Shown: positions 5,416 through 22,136 of the stretch, one piece after another
How the letters are laid out: each line of letters opens with the position of its first letter
Numbering within the stretch: position 1 is the stretch's first letter
Virus record (IMG/VR): IMGVR_UViG_3300043544_000335
Coordinates: 1-25,050 of that record
Origin: a virus
Strand: one strand, 5' to 3'
DNA length: 25,050 bases
Made by a program: the position numbers and the translations under genes
Notes under the pieces: model-generated
Databases searched by the model: none
What the model was told of the DNA's origin: nothing
The model's input: the letters and a program-made list of their open reading frames with translations, nothing else

Positions 5416-5438
5416 AGGTCAGCCAATGCAAAAATACC

Positions 5439-5735: not shown

Positions 5736-5745
5736 AAGGTCGGGA

Positions 5746-5769: not shown

Positions 5770-5770
5770 A

Positions 5771-6160: not shown

Positions 6161-6714
6161 AACTCGATGAGATTCTTAAAAAATTTGTAGAGGAGGACAA
6201 AGAAGAGAAGGAAAGGAAAATTGGCAGGTATTGGGCCTCTGAAATTTACGCAATCCGCAGGGGATACCTGAAGCCCGAGAATTTTTTCGAAAAAGCAGAA
6301 ATAGGCCTAGAGGGAGCGAGGATGATACTTACCGGCCTTGCTTATGAACATATGCTCAATGAAATTTTCTCCAAAACGAGAGCCAAGTACAGCCCGCAGG
6401 TCAAAAAAGAAATCCAAATCAACGAGGAGATTGTATTAGTGGTCAAGCCAGACTTTGTATTTCCCGAGTTTGTGATTGAGACAAAATATCCATTTTCTAT
6501 ATTAAAAGCAGGAGAAATTCCCCCGCGCTACCAAGACCAGCTCGAGGCCATATATCGGGCGTTCGAGAAGAAGGTTTATCTTGGCATATTTTCCGCACCA
6601 TTTAAAGTAACGCTCGTGCCCTACAAGCCCTCAGAAAGGAGGTGGGAAAGCATAAAAAAGATTTTGACTGCCTTTCACGAGCAACTAAAGGCCTTCCAAA
6701 AGGTCAAACAGTAA
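6157..6714 (+). CDS. PD-(D/E)XK nuclease, Cas4/RecB type, lacking the Fe-S cysteines
   Basis: 185 residues. The RecB-family nuclease signature is visible: GLAYEH with H65, KPDF with D99, ETK with E108 and K110, and a YQDQLEAIY helix (Q126/Q128). These residues coordinate metal and cut DNA. The four cysteines that hold the Fe-S cluster in Cas4 are absent. In phages such enzymes serve as recombination exonucleases. The gene lies between a helical partner and an SSB-like protein, consistent with a recombination module. A second nuclease of the same family and nearly the same size is at 9246. Confidence 0.8.
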   Translation: MKLDEILKKFVEEDKEEKERKIGRYWASEIYAIRRGYLKPENFFEKAEIGLEGARMILTGLAYEHMLNEIFSKTRAKYSPQVKKEIQINEEIVLVVKPDFVFPEFVIETKYPFSILKAGEIPPRYQDQLEAIYRAFEKKVYLGIFSAPFKVTLVPYKPSERRWESIKKILTAFHEQLKAFQKVKQ

Positions 6715-6721
6715 CACATCC

Positions 6722-7177
6722 ATGAAAAAGAGCATTGTCATCACGCAGGTTCAAAAAATAAAAGAAGGAATAAATCCCAAGACCGGAAAGAAGTGGGAAC
6801 TATTTAGGGTCTTTGACGAGAATGGAGAGAGCTACTTTACCTTCAGCACTGCCTATCAAAAACTGATAGGCCAAAAGATGGAAATCGAATACAAGATTCA
6901 GAAGAGCGTCGGGAAAAATGGGATTATTTATGTGAGCAAATACATTGTGGAGAGAAGCCAGACGCAGAAGAATTTTGAGAAAGTTTTCGATTGCTTAAAG
7001 GTCATCAATGACAACATCAAAAAACTTGCGGAGAAGGTAGAGGAGCTGAACAAGATTACGAAGGACATGCTGGCCAAAGAAGGAGAGGAGATTAAAGAAG
7101 AAAAAGAAGATAGGAGCGAGGAGTTTTCCGAAAGCGAAGAGATAAGCGACCAAGACATTGCCGAGGCCCTGAAATAA
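6722..7177 (+). CDS. SSB-like protein: putative OB fold with acidic tail
   Basis: 151 residues. The first 75 or so (ITQVQKIKEGINPKTGKKWE, FTFSTAYQKLIGQKMEIEYK, IIYVSKYIVE) are strand-rich and could be a small OB fold. A helical segment (85-115) precedes a very acidic tail (GEEIKEEKEDRSEEFSESEE) and a short end, DIAEALK. A nucleic-acid-binding fold with an acidic tail is the plan of single-strand-binding proteins. Its position after a recombination nuclease fits. The family match is inferred from shape, not recognised motif by motif. AAAGGTC is 16 nt upstream. Confidence 0.45.
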   Translation: MKKSIVITQVQKIKEGINPKTGKKWELFRVFDENGESYFTFSTAYQKLIGQKMEIEYKIQKSVGKNGIIYVSKYIVERSQTQKNFEKVFDCLKVINDNIKKLAEKVEELNKITKDMLAKEGEEIKEEKEDRSEEFSESEEISDQDIAEALK

Positions 7178-8164: not shown

Positions 8165-9178
8165 ATGAGGCGCATAAAAAAGCTGGCAGCGTGCGTCGTC
8201 CTCTTGGCGCTTGTGGCTCTTGGCATCGGCTTTTCCGAGTCAGTAGTCGTTCCTGGAGCTGACGTGCAAAAGTTCGTCCGGTCCGTGGCCGTGCAGGTTC
8301 TCGTCAATCTCGATAAGTATACTCGTTCTCTCACTTGGTATCAGGAAGTCACCGCCGACGGCCAGAAGGGCGAGTGGAAATGCAAGTATGGCGACTGGTC
8401 AAAACCCGAACGCATCGTCGTGGCCGGTTCCGGGGTTATCATCTTTTCCGATAAGCTTCCCATTCCGCAAGGCAACGTCGTGGGAGCCACCATCATTTTG
8501 ACCAACGCCCACGTCGTTGAGTATCTCGTAAAGAAAGAAGCCCTCGGATCTGCTATTAATCCTCTTGACGTCTACGACGATTCTGACCTCATTATCAGCC
8601 AGTATCCTCCTTCCGTTAAAGTGCGTGAAGGCGCTCGTCCTAAGGCCCAGCAATACTTTGTTTTGCCTGCCAACTATGTAACCATTAAGCATCGCGAAGA
8701 CCAGACTTACGAGGTCAGAGGCAAAGTTATCGCCTTTGACAAGGCTCTCGATGTGGCTCTTATCCAGCTTGACAACGTGTGGGGCCTCCCATACGCCACC
8801 TTCCGCGAAACTCCAGCTCAGGTGGGCGAAGAGGTGTGGATTTGTGGAGCACCTCTTGCTCTTCCTTTCAGCATTGATAGAGGACGCATCAATCAGATCA
8901 GGCTCGACCTTGGAGAAAGCGATGGCATCTTGTGGAACCGCCAGTTGAAGCTGGATATTGCCGCTGCTCCTGGCTCTTCTGGTTCTGGCATCTTTGACAT
9001 CAACGGCTATCTCATCGGATGCTTGCACGGCGTCCTGGTCTATCGGGGCAACTATATCCGGGGCGGACAGCTCGCAATTGACGGCGAGTTTATCCGCGAA
9101 TGGCTTATCTGGAACGGCTACGCTTTCATCGTAATGAACCCTCCCTACGCCAAGGCTCCATATGTGACCGGTAAGTAA
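8165..9178 (+). CDS. Exported trypsin-like serine protease
   Basis: 337 residues. The start MRRIKK plus hydrophobic LAACVVLLALVALGIGF (7-23) is a signal peptide or anchor. The chymotrypsin-fold triad is visible: H116 in TNAHVVEY, D196 in ALDVALIQL and S272 in APGSSGSGIF, with an oxyanion Gly two residues before. The layout resembles HtrA/DegP-type protease domains, but no PDZ domain follows. Export places it at the envelope or outside. Arg codons CGC/CGT and many CTC/CTT Leu codons differ from the AGG/AGA-rich phage genes. It has its own promoter, a strong Shine-Dalgarno and a following hairpin. Lysogenic-conversion or envelope-processing roles are guesses; the enzyme family is secure. Confidence 0.85.
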   Translation: MRRIKKLAACVVLLALVALGIGFSESVVVPGADVQKFVRSVAVQVLVNLDKYTRSLTWYQEVTADGQKGEWKCKYGDWSKPERIVVAGSGVIIFSDKLPIPQGNVVGATIILTNAHVVEYLVKKEALGSAINPLDVYDDSDLIISQYPPSVKVREGARPKAQQYFVLPANYVTIKHREDQTYEVRGKVIAFDKALDVALIQLDNVWGLPYATFRETPAQVGEEVWICGAPLALPFSIDRGRINQIRLDLGESDGILWNRQLKLDIAAAPGSSGSGIFDINGYLIGCLHGVLVYRGNYIRGGQLAIDGEFIREWLIWNGYAFIVMNPPYAKAPYVTGK

Positions 9179-9188
9179 GGGGATGGGA

Positions 9189-9218
9189 GGGACAGTATGA
9201 GCTGTCCCCCCCTTGTTT
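9189..9218 (+). terminator. Hairpin after the protease gene, weak terminator
   Basis: GGGACAG (9189-9195) pairs with CTGTCCC (9202-9208) around a 6-base loop, followed by CCCC and TTGTTT. It may partly stop transcription between the protease and the nuclease gene. Confidence 0.45.
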
Positions 9219-9245
9219 AAGAGAAGAGAAAGGAGGTGATAAGCC

Positions 9246-9797
9246 GTGCGCTATCGGCTGACGGTGTCGGAGATAATCAGCCTGCTGTTTTACAGGGCAG
9301 ATGACATCGCAGGGAAAGAGATGGTTCCCTCCGAAGTGTTAAAGGAAGGGAAAAGGATACATGACAGGCTTGGCTTCAACGACCCCCAGCAATACCGGCG
9401 TTTCGTTTTTGACCCGAACACAAACCACTGGTGGCTGATCATTGGGTGCGCCGACAAAATCGACCAGAAAGACGGCAAGGTTATGGAGCTTAAGACATAC
9501 TGGACCGCCAGGATGCCGGACAGGACAAGGGATGCGGGCGCAACTCAGGCACTTATTTACTGCTGGCTCACGGGCCTTGGAAAGTGGGAGCTCTGGGGCT
9601 ACTCGACTTACTCGAACAAGCTTTCGAAAATCGCAGAGGGTCACGCCGATGACGAGTTCGTCCGCCAAACGATCCTCAAGGCGATCCGCCTCAAGATGAT
9701 GCTCCAAGACTTCCGCTTCAAGTATATTATGGAGGCGGAAGGAGGTGGTAAGGATGCGGGAGCAGATCGAGGAGTTGGTGAGGAGATGGCAGGATAG
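9246..9797 (+). CDS. Second PD-(D/E)XK nuclease, Cas4/RecB type
   Basis: 183 residues from a GTG start, chosen because AAAGGAGGTGAT lies 5-6 nt upstream. Motifs: EGKRIHDRL (H40), GCADKID (D70, with D73 as alternative), ELK (E81, K83) and GATQALIYCWL (Q101), in the order and spacing of RecB/Cas4 nucleases. Only C68 and C106 are present, so no Fe-S cluster. It belongs to the moron cassette, overlaps the next gene by 44 bases and ends in a Gly/Asp-rich tail. It is not obviously a copy of the nuclease at 6157. A role in DNA end-processing or anti-plasmid/anti-phage activity is open. Confidence 0.75.
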   Translation: MRYRLTVSEIISLLFYRADDIAGKEMVPSEVLKEGKRIHDRLGFNDPQQYRRFVFDPNTNHWWLIIGCADKIDQKDGKVMELKTYWTARMPDRTRDAGATQALIYCWLTGLGKWELWGYSTYSNKLSKIAEGHADDEFVRQTILKAIRLKMMLQDFRFKYIMEAEGGGKDAGADRGVGEEMAG

Positions 9798-10092
9798 GCT
9801 TAACCTCAACGACTGGAACATCCAGGTGGTAGTAGTGGGGCATCCGAACCGCAAAGGAGCAGTGATCTATCCCGATTTCCGCTACAGGAAGGCAAGGCTT
9901 GTCGTGTATGACTCACGGCTCGACCTCGAGGAGTATATATTGCACGAGCTCATGCACTTGGTTGTCGGAGAGTTTTCCAACCTTGTCGTTAGGATTTTGA
10001 AGGATAGGATGACGGCCCAGGAGCAGGACCTGCTCGGGCACGAGGAGGACAGACTGGTGGAAAAGCTGACTTGGACGCTATTAGGGGGGTGA
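9754..10092 (+). CDS. HExxH putative zinc metallopeptidase
   Basis: 112 residues from ATG 9754, placed by the strong AAGGAGGTGG ending 6 nt upstream; a GTG at 9745 lies inside that ribosome site. HELMH at 64-68 is a gluzincin-type zinc motif, with E103 in HEEDRLVEK a possible further ligand. The fold, with a strand-rich first half (NIQVVVVGH, ARLVVYDS) and the helix with HELMH, recalls SprT-like or phage ImmA-type minimal metallopeptidases. It may be catalytic or a metal-binding partner. It overlaps the end of the nuclease gene. Confidence 0.65.
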   Translation: MREQIEELVRRWQDRLNLNDWNIQVVVVGHPNRKGAVIYPDFRYRKARLVVYDSRLDLEEYILHELMHLVVGEFSNLVVRILKDRMTAQEQDLLGHEEDRLVEKLTWTLLGG

Positions 10093-10098
10093 CCGGAG

Positions 10099-10308
10099 AT
10101 GCCCAAGAGCCTGAAGAAGGCGATAGAGGAGGAGCTTGACAAGGTGACAAAGCTCGTCTGGGAAGCCAACAAAATCCTGGACGAGATGGAAAGGCAAGAC
10201 ACCGAGATTGACCTGTGGCAGGCCTCGTTTACCTCAAGGCTCCGCACGATCAACCAGCAAATCGCCATCTCGGTCGTGGAGGTTCAGGCGCTTTTGGAGG
10301 CGTTCTGA
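10099..10308 (+). CDS. Small helical protein ending the moron cassette
   Basis: 69 residues, predicted nearly all helix with heptad-like spacing (LKKAIEEELDKVTKLVWEAN, LRTINQQIAISVVEVQALL). No family recognised; probably an oligomeric or partner protein. It starts 7 nt after the metallopeptidase stop, with GGTGACCGGAG as its ribosome site, and ends 10 bases before a strong terminator. It is therefore the last gene of the cassette. Confidence 0.6.
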   Translation: MPKSLKKAIEEELDKVTKLVWEANKILDEMERQDTEIDLWQASFTSRLRTINQQIAISVVEVQALLEAF

Positions 10309-10318
10309 GGCAACCGGG

Positions 10319-10345
10319 AGAGAGGGAGAAATCCCTCTCTTTTTT
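10319..10345 (+). terminator. Strong intrinsic terminator
   Basis: Perfect 9-bp stem AGAGAGGGA/TCCCTCTCT closed by a GAAA tetraloop, followed by T5. It bounds the cassette that starts at P4. Confidence 0.9.
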
Positions 10346-10441
10346 GGAGGAGCCCCGGGGGAAGCATTGCTTGTCGGCCTTCCGCCCCCTGGCGGAGAGC
10401 GCGCAAGGCGGTGCTTAAAGGTTCGACACCTTTCTCCTCCA
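10346..10441 (+). ncRNA. tRNA-like element (degenerate or non-canonical)
   Basis: GGAGGAG (10346-10352) can pair with CTCCTCC (10434-10440), and just inside it lies a perfect T-arm: AAAGG-TTCGACA-CCTTT (10417-10433) with the conserved GGTTCGA. The 96-base length fits a class II tRNA. However, I cannot find a proper D-arm or anticodon stem; the middle folds instead as CCGCC/GGCGG and other hairpins. CCA is not encoded. It may be a decayed tRNA, an integration remnant or a tRNA mimic. It starts directly after the terminator. Confidence 0.35.
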
Positions 10442-10494
10442 CAAAGGAAAAGGCCGTCAAAAATAATTGAAAATTACGAGGAGAAGAACAAAAA

Positions 10495-11775
10495 ATGGCC
10501 AATGGAGAAAATAAAATAATTTGGAGATCCGAAAAAAGGAAATTGAAAGATTTGAAATTTTTTGAGGGAAATCCGAGGCGGGCAAACGAAAAGCAGAAAC
10601 AAGATTTAGAAAAGAGTTTGGAGCGTTTTAATTTGGCAGATCCTTTAATAATAAACACAGACGGCACAGTTATCGGGGGGAATTTTAGATTGAAAATCTT
10701 AAAAGAGAAATTTGACAGCGAAACGGAAATTGATGTGAGGGTGCCAAACAGAACTTTAACAAGACAAGAAGCAGAAGAGTTAAACCTTCGTTTAAATAAA
10801 AATCAAGGAGAATGGGATTTGGACGTTTTAGCGAACTTCGATGAAGAACTTTTAAAAGAAGTAGGATGGGGAGAAGAAGAAATAGAAGAAATTTTTCATT
10901 TAGAAACCTTTGAAGATGAATTTAATTTCGAAGAAGAAATTAAAAAAATAAAAAAACCAAAAATAAAACAAGGAGACATATTCCAATTAGGAAATCATCG
11001 GTTAATGTGTGGAGATGCAACAAACTTCAACAACGTTAAAAGATTAATGGGAAAAAACAAATGCACTTTAGCAATTACAGATCCGCCCTATAATATTGGT
11101 TTGGATTATAGTAAAAAGATCACAGTGAATAAAAAATTAGCTTTCGAACCTAAAATCAGTGATAAAAAAAGTATTGAAGAATACGAACAATTTCTCGATT
11201 CTTTAATCAAAAATACTTTGAGGGTTTGTGAAAAAAATGCTCACATTTTTTTCTGGTGCGACGAAAAGTATATTTGGCTTTTACAAAAACTTTTTATGGA
11301 AAATCAAATAAAATTACAAAGAGTGTGTTTATGGATAAAGAATAACATTATGCCAACTCCGCAAAATGCTTTTAATAAAGTTTACGAAGCTTGTGTATAT
11401 GGAACAATTGGAAAACCCAAAATCAATAGAAATATTAAAAACTTGACAGAAATTTTAAACAAAGATTTACAAAAATCAGTAGATGTTTATGAATATATTT
11501 TTGAAAATTTAAATATTTGGCTTGAAAGTAGAGAAAGAGTTGATATTTATTTACATCCAACACAAAAGCCTGTAACTTTAATGGAAAAACCAATAAGGCG
11601 ATGCAGTTTTCAAAACGATATAATTTTAGATCTTTGTGGAGGATCAGGATCAACCTTGATTGCTTGCGAACAACTTAAAAGAAAATGTTATATGATGGAA
11701 ATAAACGAAACTTATTGCGAGGTTATAATAAATAGATGGGAAAAATTTACAGGTCAAAAGGCGAAAAAATTATAA
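10495..11775 (+). CDS. ParB-domain DNA (adenine/N4-cytosine) methyltransferase
   Basis: 426 residues. The N-terminal ParB/Spo0J-like domain (about 15-105) includes EGNPRRANEKQKQDLEKSLE (24-43) and TVIGGNFRLKILKE. The methylase domain has DPPYN at 196-200 and, later, the SAM-binding motif DLCGGSGST (379-387), the beta-class order. It should methylate exocyclic amines in DNA, probably to evade restriction. The gene is clearly more AT-rich than its neighbours, with many AAA, TTA and GAA codons, suggesting recent transfer. A GAGGAG Shine-Dalgarno lies 12 bases upstream. It sits between the tRNA-like element and the terminases. Confidence 0.85.
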   Translation: MANGENKIIWRSEKRKLKDLKFFEGNPRRANEKQKQDLEKSLERFNLADPLIINTDGTVIGGNFRLKILKEKFDSETEIDVRVPNRTLTRQEAEELNLRLNKNQGEWDLDVLANFDEELLKEVGWGEEEIEEIFHLETFEDEFNFEEEIKKIKKPKIKQGDIFQLGNHRLMCGDATNFNNVKRLMGKNKCTLAITDPPYNIGLDYSKKITVNKKLAFEPKISDKKSIEEYEQFLDSLIKNTLRVCEKNAHIFFWCDEKYIWLLQKLFMENQIKLQRVCLWIKNNIMPTPQNAFNKVYEACVYGTIGKPKINRNIKNLTEILNKDLQKSVDVYEYIFENLNIWLESRERVDIYLHPTQKPVTLMEKPIRRCSFQNDIILDLCGGSGSTLIACEQLKRKCYMMEINETYCEVIINRWEKFTGQKAKKL

Positions 11776-11837
11776 AGGCAAGCAACCAAGCCTTATGGAG
11801 TTAATAGGTCATAAAATAGGGGAAATTTAGGGGAATT

Positions 11838-12308
11838 ATGCCATACAAAGAGCCACCCAAGGAATACCAGTTTAAAAAGGGGGAGGGAGGCAGGCCGAAG
11901 GGCGCCAAAAACTTCAAGACCTACTTGAGGGAGGCCCTGATCGAGGTGGGAAAGGCGCTGAGCCTGGGGGAGACTCCCGATCCCGTGAAGGTCAAAATCA
12001 TCGTGAAGGGGCTGGGCGAGGCCCTGAAGGGGAATTATAATTTCTGGCAGGCAATGATGAAACTGATATTCGGCAAGGAAATAGCCGAGGAGCTGGGGGA
12101 GACGCTCAAGATGAAGGGGGACATACAGGTCGAGCCCCCAAACCCGAACAAAGCATTGGCCAGCCTAATAAACCAACTAGATGAGGAGAGCAGAAACAAA
12201 ATCATTGAGATACTCGAGAGAGCGCTTAGCCGAGGCGGATCCGAGGGAGGTGCTCTTCCTGATAAAAAACCCCCACTTCGAGAGGATGCCGTGCCAAAGC
12301 TTCCTTGA
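11838..12308 (+). CDS. Putative terminase small subunit
   Basis: 156 residues. The start (YKEPPKEYQFKKGEGGRPKG, then AKNFKTYLREAL) is the DUF5681-like pattern often found in genes directly ahead of large terminases. A basic DNA-binding N-terminus and helical rest fit a small subunit that recognises packaging sites. The end of the gene overlaps the large terminase gene by 128 bases if that gene starts at 12181. A near-motif ATAGGTC (11804-11810) lies 27 nt before the ATG. No functional motif proves the role; position is the main argument. Confidence 0.55.
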   Translation: MPYKEPPKEYQFKKGEGGRPKGAKNFKTYLREALIEVGKALSLGETPDPVKVKIIVKGLGEALKGNYNFWQAMMKLIFGKEIAEELGETLKMKGDIQVEPPNPNKALASLINQLDEESRNKIIEILERALSRGGSEGGALPDKKPPLREDAVPKLP

Positions 12309-13845
12309 GTTTGTGGACAGCCCCTACTATTTGGGCATCGGGAAGGACGTTTGGAAAAAGATTAAGGAGGAGGGCGAGAGACTGTGGAAGGGAATTTTGG
12401 AGGGAAAATACCGGGAGGCCATATGCCTGTGGGGCATAGGCAGCGGAAAGTCGTTTTTGGCCGAGGTTATAACCTGCCTTTTTGTGCATTACCTGCTGTG
12501 TCTTGAGAGGCCGCACGAGTATTACGGCCTCACGGACGACAAGCCGATTGCAGTGGTGAACATGGGTGTCAACGCCCTGCAGGCCAAGAACGTCATCTTT
12601 GCGGGCATCAGGAGGATGATCGAGAATTCGCCGTTTTTCCAGGAGTACCAGCCGGAGATTCTGCAGACAGAGATAAGGTTTCCCCGAAAAAACGTCACGC
12701 TCTATTGCGGAAACAGCCAGGAGACGATGCCGATCGGAATGAACGTCATCTGCGGCGTCTTAGACGAGGCGGCGTGGTTTCTGGACAACGAGGAGAAGTC
12801 CGTGGCGGAGAACATCTACACCACAATGAAAAACAGGATAATCTCGCGCTTCGGCGATAGGGGGTTTATATTCGTGATCTCGGCGCCGAGGTATGTGGAC
12901 GATTTCATTACCCGCCTTTATAATAAGATGAAGGACAAGGAATATGTCTACGCGACGTCATACAAGACCTGGGAAGTCAAAGATAGGGACAAGATGAAGA
13001 AGGAGGAGTTCGTTTTTAACGCGGGAAACGAGACCTGGAGGGTGCCGATGGACTTTTATGAGGTCGCCATGACAAACCCGGAAAGGTTCATGAGGGATTT
13101 TGGAGCCAAGCCGAGCCTGGCGCTGGAGGCGTTTGACAGGGATCCCGAGATAGTTGAGCGGGCGTGCAATTACCGGAGGAAGAGCCCGGTGGACGAACTT
13201 GGGAGGTTCAAGGACTGGTTCAAGGCGCCGGATTCCGAGCCCCGCTACATACACATTGACCTAGGGCTCAGGAAGGATGCCTGCGGGCTTGCAATGGGAA
13301 AGCTCGGCGGGTTTGACGAACAGGGCGGCGTCAGGAAGCCCAAGGTTTACATTGATCTGATGATGCAGATAAAACCCGGGATGCAGAAAGAGATAATCTT
13401 CGAGGACGTAAGGAGGATAGTCTACAGCCTGCGCGACAGGGGATTTAACATTAAGCTTGTGACCTTCGATGGCTTTCAAAGCGCCGATAGCATTCAAATC
13501 TTAAGGAGCAACGGGATCAACGCCGACGTGCTGTCGGTCGACAAGGACACCAGGGCCTACGAGACCCTGAAGGAGCTGCTACACACTGGCAGGATTGATT
13601 TTTACTATTACGAGCCATTTGTTAAGGAATACAAACGCCTAGAGTTGGTTAAGGGAAAGAAAGTTGACCATCCGCCCGGGGGAAGCAAGGACGTCACGGA
13701 CGCCGTGGCGGGAGTGTGTTACAATGTGTGTAGCCAAAAAACGAGCGGGTTTTTGGAATATATCAAAAGCGAAACCAGGGAGGAGAGCCCCCAGGACCAG
13801 GTGCAAAAGTGGTATGATTTTTATCGCAGATACGGGAGATTTTAA
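12181..13845 (+). CDS. terL: Terminase large subunit
   Basis: 554 residues. The packaging ATPase is seen in Walker A GIGSGKS (85-91), Walker B with VICGVLDEAAW (D195, E196) and the coupling motif SAP at 234-236. The C-terminal RNase H-like nuclease shows the three acidic residues: D360 in YIHIDLGL, D430 in VTFDGF and D504 or D507 in KDVTDAVAG. It drives DNA into the prohead and cuts concatemers. Start: ATG 12181 retains KNPHFERMP, common in the family N-terminus, but overlaps the preceding gene by 128 bases; ATG 12286 is a shorter alternative. Confidence 0.93.
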   Translation: MRRAETKSLRYSRERLAEADPREVLFLIKNPHFERMPCQSFLEFVDSPYYLGIGKDVWKKIKEEGERLWKGILEGKYREAICLWGIGSGKSFLAEVITCLFVHYLLCLERPHEYYGLTDDKPIAVVNMGVNALQAKNVIFAGIRRMIENSPFFQEYQPEILQTEIRFPRKNVTLYCGNSQETMPIGMNVICGVLDEAAWFLDNEEKSVAENIYTTMKNRIISRFGDRGFIFVISAPRYVDDFITRLYNKMKDKEYVYATSYKTWEVKDRDKMKKEEFVFNAGNETWRVPMDFYEVAMTNPERFMRDFGAKPSLALEAFDRDPEIVERACNYRRKSPVDELGRFKDWFKAPDSEPRYIHIDLGLRKDACGLAMGKLGGFDEQGGVRKPKVYIDLMMQIKPGMQKEIIFEDVRRIVYSLRDRGFNIKLVTFDGFQSADSIQILRSNGINADVLSVDKDTRAYETLKELLHTGRIDFYYYEPFVKEYKRLELVKGKKVDHPPGGSKDVTDAVAGVCYNVCSQKTSGFLEYIKSETREESPQDQVQKWYDFYRRYGRF

Positions 13846-13875
13846 TTCAAAGGTCGTCAAGTTAAGTAGACATCT

Positions 13876-14139
13876 ATGTTCGCAGAAGTAGTCGATTGGC
13901 TCATTTTAAGAATCCTTTGTGCGATGCTTTGTTACCAAATGGCGGAAAAGAAGGGGAAGGACGTGAATTTGGCCACTCTGGTCGGGCTCGCATTTGGAAT
14001 TTTGGGAGTGGCGTATTACACGATCGCAAAGAGCAGCAGAAAGAGCTGTTCCTTTTGCGGAGGAGCGATGAATCGGGACGCAAAAATTTGCCCACATTGC
14101 GGGAGAGAACCAGATTTGCTTGCCAAGATAGAAGAATAA
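13876..14139 (+). CDS. Membrane protein with C-terminal zinc ribbon
   Basis: 87 residues: two hydrophobic helices, about 6-22 and 32-51 (LATLVGLAFGILGVAYYTIA), then a zinc ribbon with CxxC pairs at C58/C61 and C72/C75 (CSFCGG, CPHCGRE). The layout is common in small bacterial membrane proteins of unknown role. AAAGGTC (13849-13855) is 20 nt upstream. Location after the terminase is unusual for a membrane protein; function unknown. Confidence 0.6.
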   Translation: MFAEVVDWLILRILCAMLCYQMAEKKGKDVNLATLVGLAFGILGVAYYTIAKSSRKSCSFCGGAMNRDAKICPHCGREPDLLAKIEE

Positions 14140-14166
14140 GGACGTGGCGAGGAGCCAGAAATTATT

Positions 14167-14301
14167 ATGGTTGAGACACAAGTTATCATCGCATCGGGGA
14201 CCGGACCGGTGACCGTGGACACTTATGCCTGGAAACCACGGGAAAGGTCAATTTTCACTCCTCCGGAGGACGAGGACCTAATAATTAACGATGATGAATG
14301 A
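14167..14301 (+). CDS. Small hypothetical protein between terminase and methyltransferase
   Basis: 44 residues, beta-rich start (MVETQVIIASGTGPVTVDTY) and acidic end. Family not recognised. The coding frame continues to a TGA that overlaps the ATGs of the next gene, a typical coupled arrangement. Its short length means modest confidence. An AAAGGTC at 14243 lies inside it, 41 nt before the next start. Confidence 0.4.
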   Translation: MVETQVIIASGTGPVTVDTYAWKPRERSIFTPPEDEDLIINDDE

Positions 14302-14932
14302 CGACACGGAGAGGGAGTTTGGGGAAATTTTTGAGGAGTATGACGAAGTATACTTTGAGGGCAAGGGAGCAAAGGCATACCACAGCTATGAGGAAGCGAG
14401 GGGGATTGTGCGGGAGCTGTTTGCGATCATTCTGAAAATGTTTAGAGGTGAAATCAAAACAGCGCTTGATATAGGGTGCGCCTACGGGTTTTCCGTGGAA
14501 TACCTCCTGCAAAACGGGGTGGACGCATACGGATGCGAGCCCTCCGCCTATGCGCTGGCCCGGGCTAAAAGATACTGGTGGGGCGAAAGGATTTTCAAGA
14601 GCTACTTGCCAAAATTGACGGGCGTCGATAGGAGGTTTGACTTGGTAACAGCGATGGAGCTTCTGGAACACATACCGGAAAAATACGCCAAGGACTCAAT
14701 CAAGAGAATTTTCGAGGTATGCGACAAATACGCCGTTATGGTGATAGCGTTCACTAAGCACTTTGGCCACATTAACTTAAAGCCGAGAGAGTGGTGGGAG
14801 GCCCTCTTCCGAGAACTAGGCTTCGCCGAGTTCGAGAGAAAGGACATAGAGAGAGAGTTCTCGAATCACCCCACTTCCAAAAGAATGCTTTGGTCGGGCA
14901 GGTTTTTTGTATTCGATTTAAGGAAAAGATGA
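14291..14932 (+). CDS. Class I SAM-dependent methyltransferase
   Basis: 213 residues (ATG 14294 is an equal alternative). SAM motif I is ALDIGCAYG (58-66), the acidic residue after strand 2 is E83 in YGCEPSAYA, and FDLVTAMELLEHIPE (116-130) is motif post-I/II. This is the UbiE/Methyltransf_11-like type, which acts on small molecules, sugars or lipids more often than DNA. The overlap with the next gene, a glycosyltransferase (ATGA), suggests they act together, for instance in decorating virion proteins, host sugars or DNA bases. Confidence 0.8.
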   Translation: MMNDDTEREFGEIFEEYDEVYFEGKGAKAYHSYEEARGIVRELFAIILKMFRGEIKTALDIGCAYGFSVEYLLQNGVDAYGCEPSAYALARAKRYWWGERIFKSYLPKLTGVDRRFDLVTAMELLEHIPEKYAKDSIKRIFEVCDKYAVMVIAFTKHFGHINLKPREWWEALFRELGFAEFERKDIEREFSNHPTSKRMLWSGRFFVFDLRKR

Positions 14933-16410
14933 ATATGTCAGGCAACTTGCCCGATAATTCCAATGCCCAAAACAAAAAGATCCGAGTTTTGGTTTGGGCG
15001 GACAGCCCGACGGTGGCTACCGGCTTTGCGCAGGTGTCCAGAAATATTGCAAGAGTCCTACACGAGACCGGGAAATACGACTTTGACTGGGTGGCGGTGA
15101 ATTTTGACGGGAGCTACTACGACAGGGAGAAGTTTCCGTACAAACTCTATCCCGCCCTCAACGCCCTCAAAATAGGCCCGGGCTACAGGGATTTATATGG
15201 GAGGCAGCAGTTTTTAGACATGCTCCAATCTGGGAAATACGACCTTGTCTTTGTGCTGGGAGACACTTTCATTGTGGCCACCATTGGACCGGAGATAGAA
15301 AAAATCAGAAGCGCCCTGCCACCCGAGAAAAAGTTCAGGTGGATTTTTTATTTCCCGATAGATGCGACGCCCTCAAAGCGGTGGATTGAGGAGTCCGTAT
15401 TGCTCGCCGATTATCCGGTGGCGTACACGGAATATGGATACAGAGAATGCCTGAGAGCATTTCAGGGATTGGACCCGGAAGACCAGAAAAAATATGACCT
15501 GCTCAAAAGCAAAATGACAATCATCTACCACGGAGTTAACCTACAAGAGTTTTGTCCTCTGAGCTGGAGCGAAGAGGAGAGGATACAGAAGAGGAAATTC
15601 TACTTTGGAGAAAAGCACTATAGAAAGTTCATCTTTATGAACCTTAACAGGAACCAGCCTAGAAAGGACATGTTCAGGAGCATGTTGGCCTGTAAAATGC
15701 TTCTCGAAAGGAGGCGCCGAAAGGGCAAGAACGACGCCCATTTTTATTTTCACTGCGCATATGACGACCCGGCGGGGATTAACCTTCTGGAGGTTTCCAA
15801 GCAGCTGGGGCTCAGGCCCGGAATTGATTGGAGCTTCCCAAACCCCAAAATGTTCACCGTGACTTACGGGTTTGAGATAAAGACGCTCAACGAGATATAC
15901 AATTGCGTCGACTGCGTCTTCTCCACGACGCTCGGGGAGGGCTTCGGGCTTTCAATTCCCGAGGCGATGGCGACGAAAAGACCAGTGATAGTGCCGAACA
16001 ACACGTCTATGCCGGAAATCACGGGGCACGGGGAAAGGGGCATCCTGGTTAAAAGTGGGGCCTCGCCGAACGATTACGTGGTTTTGCCAAACGACAACAA
16101 TAGGATTAGGCCCCTTATTGACGTAAATGATTTGGTTGACAAAATGGAGTGGGTTATGGAACACCCAAAGGAAGTTGCGCAGATGGTCGAAAGAGCGTAT
16201 GATTGGATCGGAACATTGGATTGGTCCGGGACGCGAGTGGGTATGCAATGGAGGAAATTGTTCGAAAGGGCGTATGAGGACGTTTTACGAATGAGAGAAA
16301 TGGCAAAGCTGGAATCTCAAGTCGACCTCAGGAAGCTCAAAAGAAACGACATTTGCCCGATATGCAAGGTCAAGGTTAAAAAATGCGCGCATAAAGATTG
16401 GGCGAGATGA
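14929..16410 (+). CDS. GT4-like glycosyltransferase with zinc-binding tail
   Basis: 493 residues starting at ATG 14929, overlapping the methyltransferase stop; the frame is open upstream, but that part shadows the methyltransferase. N-terminal Rossmann start IRVLVWADSPTVATGFAQVS (18-37); C-terminal nucleotide-sugar motif GEGFGLSIPEAMA (about 333-345), with IVPNNTSMPE after it. These define a GT-B retaining glycosyltransferase. The last 20 residues contain CPICKVKVKKCAH, a likely zinc-binding tail unusual for the family. Acceptor unknown: virion protein, cell-wall polymer or modified base. Confidence 0.85.
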   Translation: MNMSGNLPDNSNAQNKKIRVLVWADSPTVATGFAQVSRNIARVLHETGKYDFDWVAVNFDGSYYDREKFPYKLYPALNALKIGPGYRDLYGRQQFLDMLQSGKYDLVFVLGDTFIVATIGPEIEKIRSALPPEKKFRWIFYFPIDATPSKRWIEESVLLADYPVAYTEYGYRECLRAFQGLDPEDQKKYDLLKSKMTIIYHGVNLQEFCPLSWSEEERIQKRKFYFGEKHYRKFIFMNLNRNQPRKDMFRSMLACKMLLERRRRKGKNDAHFYFHCAYDDPAGINLLEVSKQLGLRPGIDWSFPNPKMFTVTYGFEIKTLNEIYNCVDCVFSTTLGEGFGLSIPEAMATKRPVIVPNNTSMPEITGHGERGILVKSGASPNDYVVLPNDNNRIRPLIDVNDLVDKMEWVMEHPKEVAQMVERAYDWIGTLDWSGTRVGMQWRKLFERAYEDVLRMREMAKLESQVDLRKLKRNDICPICKVKVKKCAHKDWAR

Positions 16411-16514
16411 ACAGCGATTTCAAAAATAAAATAATTTGCGGCGATGCGAACGATTAAAAGGTATTCCAGGCCCACTGTTATGATTTGCGAAACTTTAAAG
16501 AAGAGTTGAAATAA
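16407..16514 (+). pseudogene. Possible remnant of a DNA methylase gene
   Basis: ATG 16407 overlaps the glycosyltransferase stop and opens MNSDFKNKIICGDAND before TAA (16455-16457). KIICGDA is the usual start of small DNA N4/N6 methylases. In the same frame after the stop comes KVFQAHCYDLRNFKEELK and a second TAA. This looks like a gene reduced to its ends, or a chance short frame. Confidence 0.35.
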
Positions 16515-16530
16515 AAAAAGCGAATCCAAC

Positions 16531-16767
16531 ATGGCTTCACGAAGGAAAAAATGTCCAATATGCGGGAAGCCCTGGGCCTTCAGGCTTAAGGTCGTTTATG
16601 ACCTAGATGGCAAGCCGTTGTATTGCAAGCATGACGAGGACGCAGGCGACCTGCTGCGATTCGACTTGACCGACCAGAGGATCATCAAACATTTGAAAAG
16701 GGGCGAGGTTTTGGTAAAGGGGAGCGACGGCATCAGTCGCATCTGCAAAATCGTCAAAAAGAAATGA
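16531..16767 (+). CDS. Small zinc-finger protein
   Basis: 78 residues. KCPICGKPW (C8, C11) and YCKHDED (C32, H34) form a likely Zn site; the rest is basic (IKHLKRGEVLVKG, CKIVKKK). Family not recognised. It overlaps the next zinc-ribbon gene by 4 bases (ATGA). Nucleic-acid binding is likely. No AAAGGTC lies at the usual distance. Confidence 0.55.
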   Translation: MASRRKKCPICGKPWAFRLKVVYDLDGKPLYCKHDEDAGDLLRFDLTDQRIIKHLKRGEVLVKGSDGISRICKIVKKK

Positions 16768-16949
16768 GAGAAGTTACACCTCAATTAAAGCCAAAGGATT
16801 GGAGATGTCCCAATTGCGGAAGACTACTAGGGAAGTATTTAAACGAGGACTACATAGAGGTGAGGACTGAAAATCATCAGACGGTTTTTATAGAGAGGAA
16901 GCACGCCAAGGCGGTCTGCAAGTGTGGACATTTCATTAACGAGACTTGA
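16764..16949 (+). CDS. Com-like zinc-ribbon protein
   Basis: 61 residues with RCPNCGRLLGK (C15, C18) and CKCGHFIN (C52, C54), and IEVR between them. This is the layout of phage Mu Com and related zinc ribbons, which in Mu activate translation of a DNA-modification gene. Here a DNA-methylase remnant lies just upstream, an interesting parallel. The stop is followed immediately by promoter P5. Confidence 0.6.
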   Translation: MREVTPQLKPKDWRCPNCGRLLGKYLNEDYIEVRTENHQTVFIERKHAKAVCKCGHFINET

Positions 16950-16979
16950 CAAATTTAAAAAATGCGCTAAACTTATAAT
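16946..16979 (+). promoter_or_regulatory. Promoter P5, late/head genes
   Basis: TTGACA (16946-16951), a 16-base spacer and TAAACT (16968-16973). A perfect TATAAT also lies at 16974-16979, but too far from the -35. Transcripts would start near 16981, right at the structured leader. No AAAGGTC follows. Confidence 0.65.
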
Positions 16980-16981
16980 AA

Positions 16982-17089
16982 GCAGTGGTTAAAAGCTACC
17001 GCCCGGTAGCTTGACCGCGAGACGGCTTTAACCGCTGCAAATCGCTTCTCGAAAAGAGAGGTGGTTTGTAATGGTTAAAGCCGTTTTTT
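16982..17089 (+). ncRNA. Attenuator-like structured leader, or small RNA, before the portal gene
   Basis: Arm A GCAGTGGTTAAA (16982-16993) pairs with arm B (TTTAACCGCTGC, 17027-17038) around hairpin AGCTACC-GCCC-GGTAGCT (16994-17011) and a CCG/CGG hairpin. But B (17022-17033) also pairs perfectly with arm C, GGTTAAAGCCGT (17073-17084), followed by T6: an intrinsic terminator. A:B and B:C exclude each other. A third hairpin (17045-17061) covers a Shine-Dalgarno sequence. This is the design of a riboswitch or leader attenuator. Confidence 0.7.
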
Positions 17090-17121
17090 ATTATGCCCTC
17101 ATTGCGGGAAATTTTCTATAA
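17071..17121 (+). CDS. Possible leader peptide overlapping the portal start
   Basis: A 16-codon frame (MVKAVFYYALIAGNFL) with a good ribosome site GAGGTGG (17058-17064) 6 nt upstream. Its start codon lies next to arm C of the terminator, so ribosome binding would block termination. It overlaps the portal gene in another frame. Confidence 0.35.
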   Translation: MVKAVFYYALIAGNFL

Positions 17122-18814
17122 AAAATTCATCGAGCCGGCTCTTAAGCCCCTGCAGGAGAAAGTCAAACAGCAGGAGGAAATTATCAAGGTGCAACAAGAG
17201 ATGCTGGAGAAAAGAGATATGCCCCTGCATTATGCGACGCCGTTCAGAATGGTCGAGGGCACTGCCGGACAGGACATCTACAAGTGGAAAAAGATCGTAG
17301 ACTTCCGCACCCTTCGCGAGCTGTCCGAGAGGTATGACGTTGCGAGGGCTTGCATTAACAGAAGAAAGAGGCAAGTCGAGGGGGTTGATTGGTCCATTAC
17401 CCCCATAGATCCAAGAGCAAAAGCGGAAGAATACAGAAGCGACATAGAGAGGGTGAAAAAATTTTTCGATATGCCCGGCGGGAAGTTCTCCCGATTCAGG
17501 GAGTTCGTGGGCAGGCTGGTTGAGGACCTGCTTGTGCTGGACGCCGCCGTTGTCTGGAAGGATAAAACCATTGGCGGAGAGTTAATAAAGTTAGTAATAG
17601 TCGACCCCGAAACAATCCGCATAAGGGTGAACCTCGACGGGAGCATTCCAGAGCCCCCGGACGTGGCGTATGAGCAATGGGTGATGGGCGAGAAGAAGGG
17701 AGAGTTCACCACAGACGAGATGGTGTATTTGATGCTGAATCCGAGATCGAACACTCCCTACGGACTTGCGCCATTGGAAACCTTAATCCTTGGAGTGGAC
17801 GCCGCATTAAGGGCACAGCTGTATAACTTGAGCCTGCTTTCTGAGGGAAATATACCCGAGGGGTTTTTTACTTTACCGGAGTCTTGGACGCCAGACCAGA
17901 TTAGGGAATTTCAGGAATGGTTCGATGCCCTTGTCGCGGGCAGTCCCAGATTCCAGTCAAGGATTAAGTTTATGCCCGGCGGGAAGGGCGTCGGGTTCGT
18001 GCCCACCAAGAGGCCGGAGGACATGAGGTTTTTGGAGTATGAGAAGTGGCTTATGCTCAAGACCTGCGCCCTGTTCGACGTTCCGCCGGAGGAGATAGGG
18101 TTTACCGAGGAAATGTCCAGGGCCACGGCCCAGGTGCAGCAGGAAGTTGCGACGAAGGCGGGACTCGTGCCCATCCTTCAAACCCTCAAGGAGTTTTTCG
18201 ACGACATTATCCAAATAGATCTCGGATGTCCCCATTTGCAGTTCAGCTGGTATTCGCTCGACAAGAAGGACGAACTCAGGGATGCGCAGATCACAAGGAT
18301 GCTGATTCCCCTCGGCCTTGTCTCGGTCGACGAATGGAGGCAGGAGAACGGCCTCCCCCCGATCGGCCTTGACCATTTCATTATGACCGGCCAGGGGCCG
18401 GTGATGGTTAAAGACCTTATCAGGCCCTCGCAAAGGATGGAGGAGCAAAAGCCCAAAGAGCCCCAAGCCGAAAAGCCCCAGGAACAACAAAAAGAACCAC
18501 AAACCCAAGAGGAGGGAGTTGTCAAAGAATTGATCCAGTGGAAAACCAGGTGTTTGAACGCTATCAAAAAAGGCAAGAGAGCGGACAGGTTAAGGCCATT
18601 TCAATGCAGGTTTATTCCCGAGGATGTCCAAAAGCTTATCAGGGCGCAGCTGTTTTTCGCCAAAACCAAGGAAGAGATAAGGAAAATTTTTGACACCCAA
18701 ATTAAGGCGATGAGGCAGGAAATCATAATGCAAAGGGCGATGTCACTAAAGGAGGACATTAGCAAAGCAATTCAAGAGTATGCAGATATTGGAACTGGAG
18801 AAAAAATTGAATGA
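17093..18814 (+). CDS. Portal protein
   Basis: 573 residues. The N-terminus has a short coiled coil (LQEKVKQQEEIIKVQQEML). The body has typical portal features: DVARACINRRKRQVEGVDWS, DEMVYLMLNPRSNTPYGLAP, and MLKTCALFDVPPEEIGF, seen in HK97/SPP1-type portals. A Gln/Glu/Pro-rich linker (about 445-475) leads to a C-terminal module (RLRPFQCRFIPEDVQKLI). The dodecamer forms the DNA channel and docks the terminase. The start is right after the terminator U-run of the leader, with no Shine-Dalgarno of its own at normal distance, so initiation may depend on the leader. It overlaps the MuF gene by 35 bases. Confidence 0.88.
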   Translation: MPSLREIFYKKFIEPALKPLQEKVKQQEEIIKVQQEMLEKRDMPLHYATPFRMVEGTAGQDIYKWKKIVDFRTLRELSERYDVARACINRRKRQVEGVDWSITPIDPRAKAEEYRSDIERVKKFFDMPGGKFSRFREFVGRLVEDLLVLDAAVVWKDKTIGGELIKLVIVDPETIRIRVNLDGSIPEPPDVAYEQWVMGEKKGEFTTDEMVYLMLNPRSNTPYGLAPLETLILGVDAALRAQLYNLSLLSEGNIPEGFFTLPESWTPDQIREFQEWFDALVAGSPRFQSRIKFMPGGKGVGFVPTKRPEDMRFLEYEKWLMLKTCALFDVPPEEIGFTEEMSRATAQVQQEVATKAGLVPILQTLKEFFDDIIQIDLGCPHLQFSWYSLDKKDELRDAQITRMLIPLGLVSVDEWRQENGLPPIGLDHFIMTGQGPVMVKDLIRPSQRMEEQKPKEPQAEKPQEQQKEPQTQEEGVVKELIQWKTRCLNAIKKGKRADRLRPFQCRFIPEDVQKLIRAQLFFAKTKEEIRKIFDTQIKAMRQEIIMQRAMSLKEDISKAIQEYADIGTGEKIE

Positions 18815-19640
18815 CTTTTTGATCAAGACAATGAGAGTGAATCCCCTGCTTGGAAGCGTCGAGAGAAGCAGAAAATACAGGGAAGCCAGAAATGAAATCG
18901 AGCAGGCGCTACTGCGGCAGGCAATCCAGTTTCTGAGAAGCGAGGCCCTGAGGGAGATAGATCAAAAAGTAAGGGTTGGCGAGAATGTCATCTGGACGGA
19001 ACACCACGAAAAGCAAATAGGAGACATCATCAGGAGGCACTTTAAAAAGCTAAAAAACTTTGTCAACGTCACGCTTCTCCGAGAATTTTACCTGTGGCTG
19101 GCCAATTTGGGGGGGCAGAATTTCTTTAACAAGATCAGAATAAGAACCTTTAAGAAGGTAAACGTCATAGGTGTTAGGTTCGATTTGAAAAATCTCGCCA
19201 TGATAAGGGAGCTTATGAACGACGTCGATCTGTTAATCGACAGTCTGGACGAAACCACCGAACAATGGCTTATCGATCAGTTTATCAGGGGCAAGAAGGA
19301 GGGCCTGAGCAGCAGAGAGATTGCGGAGATTGTCAGGGAAAAGATTCCAGAGACCTACGCTTATAGGGCCGAAACAATAGTGGCCACCGAGAGCGCAGAG
19401 ATCACCAACAGGATAGAGTATGAGACGGCCCTCAGGAACGAGGCAACCTCCAAAAGATGGACTACCGCGGGGCTGAATATCTGCGAGACTTGTCGAGAGA
19501 ACGAAAGCGCCGGATGGATTGGGCTCAACTCCGACTTTCCAAGCGGACACTTCAGGCCCCCGGCACATCCAAATTGCAAATGCTTGCTTGAATATGAAAT
19601 CCCGCCATACGTTTCCGGATACGGATGGGCGGGAGAATAA
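18780..19640 (+). CDS. Minor head protein, MuF/SPP1 gp7 type
   Basis: 286 residues. The helical first two-thirds includes a REIAEIVREKIPETYAYR helix. The C-terminal MuF domain is recognised by ATSKRWTTAGLNICETCREN and FRPPAHPNCKCLLEY (C-x2-C, H-x2-CxC), a metal-binding pattern found in head-morphogenesis proteins. They bind the portal inside the prohead and can be ejected with the DNA. Position right after the portal, with a 35-base overlap, is the usual one. Confidence 0.85.
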   Translation: MQILELEKKLNDFLIKTMRVNPLLGSVERSRKYREARNEIEQALLRQAIQFLRSEALREIDQKVRVGENVIWTEHHEKQIGDIIRRHFKKLKNFVNVTLLREFYLWLANLGGQNFFNKIRIRTFKKVNVIGVRFDLKNLAMIRELMNDVDLLIDSLDETTEQWLIDQFIRGKKEGLSSREIAEIVREKIPETYAYRAETIVATESAEITNRIEYETALRNEATSKRWTTAGLNICETCRENESAGWIGLNSDFPSGHFRPPAHPNCKCLLEYEIPPYVSGYGWAGE

Positions 19641-19663
19641 AAGGTCATTTTACCTAAAAGATT

Positions 19664-20671
19664 ATGCCCATACCACAACCAAAACCAGACGAAAAGAAAA
19701 ATGACTTTATCTCAAGATGCATGAGCGACAAGGTAATGGTCAAAGAGTATCCCGACCAGGCCCAAAGATACGCAATTTGCCTCGCGACCTGGCGGAAGGG
19801 AAAAAAGGCGAGGTTCATTTATTACATCAGATGGAAGGCGAACTTCAAATGGGACGCCCTCAAAAAGGTTGTAGAAAAATACCAAACATTGCAGAAGATG
19901 CAGAAAATCTCAATCGAAGAGGGCGGACAATATTGGAGAGTGAGAGTAAAGAGCCCGGACAAGTTTGACGCCCAAAGCTTCCGGATAATCGACCTCAAAG
20001 ACGACGGAAGCATTAGGGCGGTCATAGGATGCCCCAAGGGGCAGTTCAAAAACGGCGTGTGCCAGGTTGGCACCGAAATTCAGGCATACCTTTTTAGGAA
20101 AGAAAGCTTTTCCAAGGAGGATGTGGAGAAATGGATTGAGGAGCACAAGGCGTCGTTGCCGGATTTGCAAAAGGCGGTTTGGACTAGGGACTACATTAAC
20201 AGACTGCCAGATGCCGCCTTCGCTCTAATTCTTCCCGGCGGAGAAAAAGACGAAGAGGGAAAAACCACCCCCCGCTATTTGAGACTCTTGCCTCACCATA
20301 ATATGAATGTGAGGAATGGCTTGGAGCACGATACCGTGGACATACCACACCTCAGAAATGCTCTGGCGAGATTGCCCCAAATCAAGGACATTACGGAAGC
20401 CGACAGGAAGAGGGCATATGAGCATCTCGCAAGACACGCGAGGGCACTTTTGCCAAGTTGGCAAGAAGAAGAAGAGGAAAAGAAGGCTAGGACCGATAAC
20501 GGCGCCTTGGCGGAGCTTAAGAAGATTTTGAAAGATATTGACGAGCTTTACAGGGCGGAACTGGACGCGATGTGGAATGCTGAACCCCAGCATTATCAGA
20601 AACTCGAGAGAAAGCTCGAGGATCTGAGAAAAAGATACCAGGAGCTAAAGGTCAAGATGAAAAAGAGCTAA
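19664..20671 (+). CDS. Head-assembly protein of unknown role
   Basis: 335 residues. The first 55 (DDFISR-like FISRCMSDKVMVKEYPDQAQ, AICLATWRKGKKAR) match a small segment often found next to or fused with prohead proteases. A middle beta-rich part (IRAVIGCPKGQFKNGVCQVG) and LLPHHN...VDIPHLRNALARL follow, and the end is a long charged coiled coil (about 275-335). I recognise no enzyme motif. Position between MuF and protease suggests a capsid or scaffold-related role. AAAGGTC is 17 nt upstream. Confidence 0.55.
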   Translation: MPIPQPKPDEKKNDFISRCMSDKVMVKEYPDQAQRYAICLATWRKGKKARFIYYIRWKANFKWDALKKVVEKYQTLQKMQKISIEEGGQYWRVRVKSPDKFDAQSFRIIDLKDDGSIRAVIGCPKGQFKNGVCQVGTEIQAYLFRKESFSKEDVEKWIEEHKASLPDLQKAVWTRDYINRLPDAAFALILPGGEKDEEGKTTPRYLRLLPHHNMNVRNGLEHDTVDIPHLRNALARLPQIKDITEADRKRAYEHLARHARALLPSWQEEEEEKKARTDNGALAELKKILKDIDELYRAELDAMWNAEPQHYQKLERKLEDLRKRYQELKVKMKKS

Positions 20672-20674
20672 AAT

Positions 20675-22096
20675 ATGCGCCAGCTCAAAAAATCAGTTTC
20701 AATGCCAAACAGCACGCAATTTTTCGTCCCCTTTTCCAAAATTGACAAATACCAGCATATGGTTTACGGGTATGTCTCGACCGAGACAGAGGACTCGCAA
20801 GGAGAGATAGTGGAAAAGGAGGCGATCAGGAAGGCATGGGACGATTATATGAAATTTGCTAACATTCGGGAGATGCACCAACTGAAGGCAGTTGGAGTGA
20901 CCAAGGAGTATGTCCACGATGATATCGGCACTTGGATAGGGGCGAAGATTGTCGACAGAGACGCGTGGGAAAAAATTGTCGAAGGGGTATATAAGGGATT
21001 TTCCATCGGCGGGAAGGTTCTGAAAAAGGTGGGAAATCGGATCAAAGAGCTTATTCTGAACGAAATTAGCATAGTGGACAGGCCCTCAAATCCCGACGCC
21101 GTCTTTCAAATAATCAAAACAGAGAAGGGAAAATTGCAATATGTGAACAAGGTCATTAAAAATCCCGCGAGCAAAGCGGGGACAAAGGTCGATCAGGTTA
21201 TAAAAAACAACATGAGAAAGCAAGACATAAAACCAGAAGAAAAACCAGCTCCAGAAGTTCCCGTTGAACAACCTCAAAATCAACCAGAGGAACAACAGGA
21301 ACCAAAGGAGCAACAAAACCAACCACAAGAAAAGCAAGAGACTCAAGAGTTGACAGAACAAGACATTTTAGAGGCCCTGAATGAACTGAAAGACAATACC
21401 CAAGCGTTGCTTGACGCCATTTCAGAAAGCGAGGATGTTCCAGAGATGCTGATTTACAAACTTGGCAAGATTGTCGAGATGCTCGGTTGGACCATCGAGT
21501 ATCTCGAATCGGAGAACGGAGAAGCCATGCCAGACGAGGAAGAGCCCGAAGAGGAAAATGGAGAGGCAGAAACGCCACAAAACGAAGAAGGAGAATCTGA
21601 AGAGGAAGAATCAGAAGAAAGCGCAGAAGAAAGAAAAAAACCAGCAGAAAGCGCGCAAGCGCAAAACAAAGAAGAAAAAAAGGTCGCAAAAATCGAGGGC
21701 CTTTCAAAGGCCATAAGAGGAAGATTGGAAGAGATAGCCCTCAAGGTTGACGCTCTTAATGCCTCAATTGCTAAAGTAGAGAAGATAGAAAAAGAGGTGT
21801 CTTCTCTAAAAGAGCAATTGGAGGAGATTAAGAGGCAACCAAGGGCATCTAGACCAGTCGCCTCTTACTTGGTCGAGAAAGGAGCCTCGTCCGGTGCTCA
21901 CAAGAGCATTGCAGATGTCGAGCAGGAGCTGAAGAAGATTCAGGCCGAGATCGACAAGACATACGAAGAGGCCAAATCCTTGATTGGAAAGGAAAATCCG
22001 ATCAAGGAGGCGGAATACAAGAGGAAGCTCGAAGATCTCGAAAAGAGATATTTCGAGCAAAAGAGACTTTTAATGGAGCTGAAAAGGCTCCAATAA
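20675..22096 (+). CDS. XkdF-type prohead protease fused to scaffold
   Basis: 473 residues. The protease domain (about 18-150) has YGYVSTETEDSQGEIVEKEA, MHQLKAVG (H68), GVYKGFSIGGKV (S110) and LNEISIVDRPSNPDA, a Peptidase S78-like pattern. A Gln/Pro/Glu linker (188-235), an acidic segment (280-330) and a coiled coil (340-473) make the scaffold. The protease removes scaffold after prohead assembly. The start at 20675 rather than ATG 20702 is favoured by AAAGGTC 21 nt upstream. It lies directly ahead of the capsid gene. Confidence 0.85.
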   Translation: MRQLKKSVSMPNSTQFFVPFSKIDKYQHMVYGYVSTETEDSQGEIVEKEAIRKAWDDYMKFANIREMHQLKAVGVTKEYVHDDIGTWIGAKIVDRDAWEKIVEGVYKGFSIGGKVLKKVGNRIKELILNEISIVDRPSNPDAVFQIIKTEKGKLQYVNKVIKNPASKAGTKVDQVIKNNMRKQDIKPEEKPAPEVPVEQPQNQPEEQQEPKEQQNQPQEKQETQELTEQDILEALNELKDNTQALLDAISESEDVPEMLIYKLGKIVEMLGWTIEYLESENGEAMPDEEEPEEENGEAETPQNEEGESEEEESEESAEERKKPAESAQAQNKEEKKVAKIEGLSKAIRGRLEEIALKVDALNASIAKVEKIEKEVSSLKEQLEEIKRQPRASRPVASYLVEKGASSGAHKSIADVEQELKKIQAEIDKTYEEAKSLIGKENPIKEAEYKRKLEDLEKRYFEQKRLLMELKRLQ

Positions 22097-22136
22097 AGGT
22101 CGGTGAGCATCGGTTTACTTTAAAACGCAACCGAAG

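Follow-up and report, generated by a model that had tools for sequence, protein, structure and literature searches.

The window, a stretch of 25,050 nt from virus record IMGVR_UViG_3300043544_000335, carries a structured leader directly 5′ of a portal protein gene. The portal assignment is firm (phrog_2662, E 9.5e-65; Pfam Phage_portal, 2e-27). Directly upstream of the leader lies a gene missed by an earlier note on this DNA, encoding a small, Com-like zinc-ribbon protein; its TGA stop codon falls inside the TTGACA of the leader promoter. The features are collected in Table 1.

Table 1. Features of the portal leader and its surroundings in the window, and positions of the homologous leaders in other phages.
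Feature	Position	Strand	Remarks
Com-like zinc-ribbon protein gene (61 aa, WRCPNCGRLL...CKCG)	16764..16949	+	Candidate RNA-binding partner
Promoter (TTGACA, 16 nt, TAAACT)	16946..16973	+	TTGACA and a TATAAT-like hexamer at all nine loci
Arm A, 5′ strand of antiterminator helix P1	16982..16993	+	A:B covariation
Hairpin h1 (AGCUACC-GCCC-GGUAGCU)	16994..17011	+	Sequence varies, pairing kept; covariation
Hairpin h2 (CCG-CGAGA-CGG)	17015..17025	+	Loop C...GA in eight of nine leaders
Arm B, common to antiterminator (with A, 17027–17038) and terminator (with C, 17022–17033)	17022..17038	+	
Inner hairpin in terminator loop	17039..17072	+	Sequence and length variable
Arm C, terminator 3′ strand	17073..17084	+	B:C covariation
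U-run of predicted intrinsic terminator (six T in the DNA)	17084..17089	+	4–8 U in nine of nine leaders
Portal protein gene (ATG at 17093), first behind the proposed gate	17093..18814	+	phrog_2662, Pfam Phage_portal
Homologous leaders, part 1	L001 3893–4019; L004 4571–4692; L005 815–927; L008 4566–4681		
Homologous leaders, part 2	L012 204–310; L013 3776–3870; L047 5864–5976; L048 1971–2080		

The earlier note had described an arm B that can pair with either an upstream arm A or a downstream arm C. Checked against the window sequence, the three arms are as described and lie where they had been placed. The A:B helix is formed by GCAGUGGUUAAA and UUUAACCGCUGC (12 bp, one G-U) and the B:C helix by ACGGCUUUAACC and GGUUAAAGCCGU (12 bp, perfect). 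The two helices are mutually exclusive, as had been stated, and both are kept and covary in nine leaders. The two hairpins inside the A:B loop, the six T and the portal ATG were likewise found in the positions given for them. Two further claims stood only in part. A promoter does precede the leader, but its correct elements are TTGACA at 16946–16951 and, after 16 nt, TAAACT at 16968–16973. A third hairpin, placed over a ribosome site (AGAGAGGTGG...ATG at 17071), is present in the window but is not conserved: it was seen only there, and the inner hairpin of the other eight leaders is variable.

The 140-nt region was predicted to fold at −69 kcal/mol, compared with a mean of −35.6 kcal/mol for shuffled sequences (z −8.9). 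A strict scan of the window for triples of arms, requiring a B:C helix of at least 11 bp, an A:B helix of at least 10 bp and T5, returned the leader as its sole site; any such site occurred in 6 of 200 shuffles. A loose, energy-only scan of the window for A/B/C triples did not separate the leader from shuffles. Because comparable combinations arise in shuffles under the loose scan, the single sequence is weak evidence, suggestive rather than decisive. Conservation decides that the observation is real, as the architecture of A, h1, h2, B, C and U-run is found in nine diverged phages and both helices covary.

Homologous leaders were sought in IMG/VR using the portal protein, portal alignments, the major capsid protein and DNA patterns. 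Eight were found in uncultivated phages, each directly 5′ of a portal gene whose product is from about 73% down to 50% identical to that of the window. The order of elements is the same in all nine phages: promoter, A, h1, h2, B, inner hairpin, C, U-run and portal ATG. Three additional DNA-pattern matches (L132, L133 and L135) were rejected as unrelated coding sequence without a portal relative. A covariance model searched over 57 loci (618 kb) found the nine leaders only, at one copy per phage; across 380 bacterial genomes from the phylum of L122, a set without a positive control, it gave no match. In Rfam, including its riboswitches and T-boxes, nothing scored above the gathering score in the window and the eight other loci, and below that score there were merely meaningless microRNA-type matches with E up to 10.

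Two observations on the relatives are recorded here. L122 (JAGYLR010000006.1; about 0.7 Mb) is the only bacterial assembly with this capsid gene. Its phylum has genomes of 0.5–1.1 Mb, which hints at Patescibacteria-like hosts, a binning error being possible. In L001, an ORF inserted between head genes (6562–7038) looks, by appearance, like a LAGLIDADG-type homing endonuclease (WWAWTAGIIDGEGSISIQ).

At all nine loci, TTGACA is followed 16–18 nt downstream by a TATAAT-like hexamer that ends just upstream of arm A (in L001, TTGACA at 3863, 17 nt and TATATA), and in several cases the upstream gene has its stop codon within the TTGACA. Leader-peptide (ribosome-mediated) attenuation was rejected, as no start codon or ORF is common to the nine leaders. 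None of the nine portal genes is preceded by a Shine-Dalgarno sequence; this was not retained as a peculiarity of the portal gene since most genes of these phages lack one.

With respect to translation signals elsewhere in the window, five adjacent genes at 8165–10519 have a strong Shine-Dalgarno sequence (e.g. AAGGAGGTGAGGAG). Since most other genes have none, this block may be of other origin. Separately, the word AGGTC (often AAAAGGTCA) occurs no more than 60 nt upstream of the start codon in about 20 of 36 genes, against about two expected from background. It often lies 21–27 nt before the ATG, on the + strand at 1538–6701 and 11751–22097, and is frequent in L005 as well. AGGTC might be an unusual translation or promoter signal.

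An absence of covariation had been named in the earlier note as an outcome that would refute the switch. Among the homologous leaders, both A:B and B:C were found to covary. The mean duplex energies of arms from the same phage were −11.4 kcal/mol (A:B) and −20.5 kcal/mol (B:C), versus −3.8 and −11.1 kcal/mol for arms swapped between phages. For each helix, the true assignment of arms was the best of 40,320 permutations; this test used RNA duplex energies, left out the near-duplicate L048 and did not model phylogeny. Positions 4–11 of A:B showed three or four pair types apiece. Hairpins h1 and h2 also covary: the sequence of h1 changes and its pairing stays, and the CCG/CGG stem of h2 becomes CUG/CAG in L012 and L013. 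In the diverged leaders (L047, L048, L012 and L013), internal loops interrupt the B segment of B:C, yet A:B is still largely paired; A:B therefore does not arise merely as a by-product of B:C. A structural hallmark of an attenuator, namely conserved, mutually exclusive helices with one common strand, is present.

According to the fold predictions, a nascent RNA that reaches as far as B already contains A:B, with about 8–12 expected pairs, in each of the nine leaders. Once C has been transcribed, A:B falls to zero and the terminator is ahead by 9–26 kcal/mol, again in all nine. Some full-length folds also showed the 5′ end paired with the h2 loop, too inconsistently to support a claim. Within the limits of thermodynamics, this predicted order of folding fits a co-transcriptional terminator/antiterminator switch. 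The sequence features of an intrinsic terminator, a stable B:C stem with four to eight U directly after it, are also found in nine of nine leaders, some of which have just four U. In the terminator state of the window, the portal start codon itself is predicted to be unpaired. Covariation and folding order, each in nine of nine, support the terminator/antiterminator reading first proposed for the window. On the sequence evidence, a conserved leader of this type 5′ of the portal gene is well supported, with actual termination being inferred.

Homologs of the Com-like gene precede the leader in all nine phages. Compared with the Com proteins of Mu and other phages using hhalign, the nine-member family gave a probability of 96% (E 3.4e-9); the alignment spans the N-terminal 28 columns at 43% identity and the RCxxCxxLL...IEI half of Com is present. 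The second zinc pair of Com, CPRC right after IEI, was not found, and a CKC occurs about 20 residues further on. The protein was named Com-like and not filed in the Com family because this second cysteine pair differs (CxC versus CxxC). Weak matches were obtained to PF10122 for five of seven members (best E 0.0082, not above the Pfam cut-off) and to phrog_6417, a ‘translational regulator’, for six of seven (best E 5.8e-4). The window member alone gave no Com match and the window record no PF10122 match. A fold search with the predicted structure (mean pLDDT 82.9) yielded no confident match (best Z 2.8), comparison of the sequence with solved structures gave weak matches only, and the alignment was too variable to serve as the seed of a collection scan.

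The Com-like gene and the leader are jointly absent from three relatives, L010, L014 and the bacterial assembly L122, and of the neighbouring genes only the Com-like one follows the leader in presence and absence. In the portal tree, these three fall among leader-bearing phages and four changes are needed, readable as one putative gain and three joint losses. This co-loss is weaker than it looks because gene, promoter and leader adjoin, such that one deletion removes all three. A second small zinc-ribbon gene (CPxCG...CxH...VKGSDGISRIC), located before the Com-like gene, lies at 16531–16767 in the window, 3344–3670 in L001 and 3318–3660 in L122; relatives that have no leader carry it too. In L010, it is frameshifted at about 4120–4160, the Com-like gene and leader being missing. 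In L014, a different gene (4496–4891) takes the place of both, and TTGACA remains upstream of the portal gene.

Com of phage Mu acts on translation: it binds a hairpin beside an inhibitory structure in the mom mRNA and turns the gene on (PMC6483171). Its target lies within GAAUGCCUGCGAGCAUCCC, has the loop CUGCGA and depends crucially on the GA (PMC6483171). In eight of the nine leaders, the exception being L012, the h2 loop starts with C and ends with GA. The CC-GC-GAG of the window fits the published CC(N)2-3GAG exactly, and the SELEX motif with a C-G closing pair is not exactly met in the homologs. L012 is not only the sole phage without the h2 loop motif but also the sole one without N-[RHK]-Q in the Com-like protein. 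Absent binding data, the resemblance of the h2 loop to the Com RNA target is only a likeness, and the loop and N-[RHK]-Q coincidences, noticed after the fact, are leads and not tests. The two systems have in common a small zinc-binding phage protein encoded directly upstream, with N-terminal halves that align, and a target hairpin loop beside an inhibitory RNA structure, which in Mu is opened by Com binding (PMC6483171). They differ in the second cysteine pair and in the target, here a portal rather than a DNA-modification gene; moreover, the leader has its own promoter and terminator/antiterminator pair, and binding to it has not been shown.

Of the mechanisms considered, the best is control by the Com-like protein. 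In the proposed model, a promoter within the packaging/head gene cluster would give rise to an RNA whose first ∼105 nt are the leader. The emerging RNA would adopt a three-way junction comprising P1 (A:B) and hairpins h1 and h2. On exit of arm C, A would be displaced from B and a GC-based hairpin would form, followed by the U-run; transcription would then end just before the portal gene, releasing an RNA of ∼105 nt. The Com-like protein would bind h2 at its C...GA loop and hold the A:B form, and polymerase would read through into the portal gene and the head genes that follow. The proposed polarity rests on the 3′ strand of h2, which is part of the terminator base (fully in most leaders, by two bases in L012 and L013), so that h2 excludes that base and a protein holding h2 closed would block termination. 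We assign a probability of roughly 0.58 to the whole model, in which termination is prevented by the Com-like protein bound to h2 and the portal and head genes are thereby turned on. It builds on observed sequence, conservation, covariation of both states and co-occurrence of the Com-like gene. Termination, binding, activation and timing are inferred, there being no transcript or binding data.

The switch itself is supported by covariation and folding order independently of any ligand, and several other phage genes are linked to the leader. A real switch could instead respond to some other signal (a host factor, a small molecule, another phage protein or feedback by a capsid protein), or termination could be what the Com-like protein favours. 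We consider this unlikely: the Com-like gene is the sole neighbour matching the leader in presence, the zinc-ribbon gene at 16531–16767 also occurring without it, and what little unpaired sequence is conserved (a GA separating h1 from h2, plus the C...GA loop) resembles a protein site more closely than a metabolite pocket.

It is improbable that control acts mainly on portal translation, with the B:C stem blocking the ribosome as in the Mu mom mRNA until the Com-like protein opens it. The stem lies close to the ATG in nine of nine leaders, ending about 10 nt ahead of it, no Shine-Dalgarno sequence is present, and Mu Com acts on translation (PMC6483171). Nevertheless, the U-run straight after a GC-containing stem in all nine leaders points to termination, the start codon is predicted to be unpaired in the terminator state, and a Shine-Dalgarno sequence is in any case missing from most genes of these phages.

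The earlier note had offered a separate small RNA of about 110 nt as an alternative. A free-standing RNA of about 105 nt, which might serve assembly or packaging, would be in keeping with the leader having its own promoter and terminator, adjoining the portal gene and being present in one copy per phage. However, for a product ending as the far more stable B:C, the retention of A:B complementarity would be unexplained, which makes this reading less likely; in addition, three relatives do without the leader, and the terminator would stand before the portal gene with no way past. We regard such an RNA as very improbable without excluding it. A plain terminator that merely ends the upstream transcript, A matching B by chance, is scarcely tenable: comparable combinations do occur among shuffles in the loose single-sequence scan, but they are outweighed by the covariation of A:B across the nine leaders, with as many as four pair types at a position, and by A:B pairing in diverged leaders where B:C has internal loops.

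The Com-like switch can be set beside other known systems. In phage lambda, the terminator tR′ lies close behind pR′, the late promoter of the structural genes; Q alters RNA polymerase in the vicinity of the promoter, with effect at distant terminators. An attenuator over phage structural genes was called unusual when the leader was first described; a terminator shortly behind a late promoter of such genes has at least this precedent. As in lambda, a regulator gene, here a putative one, lies just upstream of the promoter, followed by a terminator ahead of the structural genes; what differs here is that the leader can adopt two exclusive folds and that a Com-like protein is the candidate regulator. 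The pRNA of phi29 is a phage RNA tied to packaging/portal genes that works in the packaging motor. The leader is of about the same length and also near such genes; it has no Rfam match, and no likeness to pRNA is claimed. The put RNA of HK022 is a structured RNA of roughly similar size, made immediately after a phage promoter and involved in termination (PMC9378689); it comprises two stem-loops and, needing no protein, exerts a processive effect on RNA polymerase, whereas here a local terminator would be disrupted by an alternative helix. Protein-controlled bacterial attenuators, such as that of Bacillus subtilis rplJL, share the principle of a protein acting on a leader to attenuate transcription of an operon (PMC4538822); RNA and protein differ, and the operon here is a phage structural one. 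We tentatively propose that a Com-type zinc-ribbon protein acting as a transcription antiterminator on a three-way-junction leader, and so opening portal/head expression, could represent a new class of control.

The leader defines an RNA family of nine members that is absent from Rfam and missed by current annotation pipelines. That nine diverged phages keep both RNA shapes together with the Com-like neighbour suggests a previously undescribed on/off gate for head building. The timing of head-gene expression in uncultivated phages is mostly unknown, and a conserved RNA gate and the candidate protein linked to it provide a compact system that can be tested with reporters. If the model is true, the Com family would be extended from mom translation to transcription termination of structural genes, and Com-like proteins, known as translational activators of DNA-modification genes, would be general operators of RNA switches in phages.
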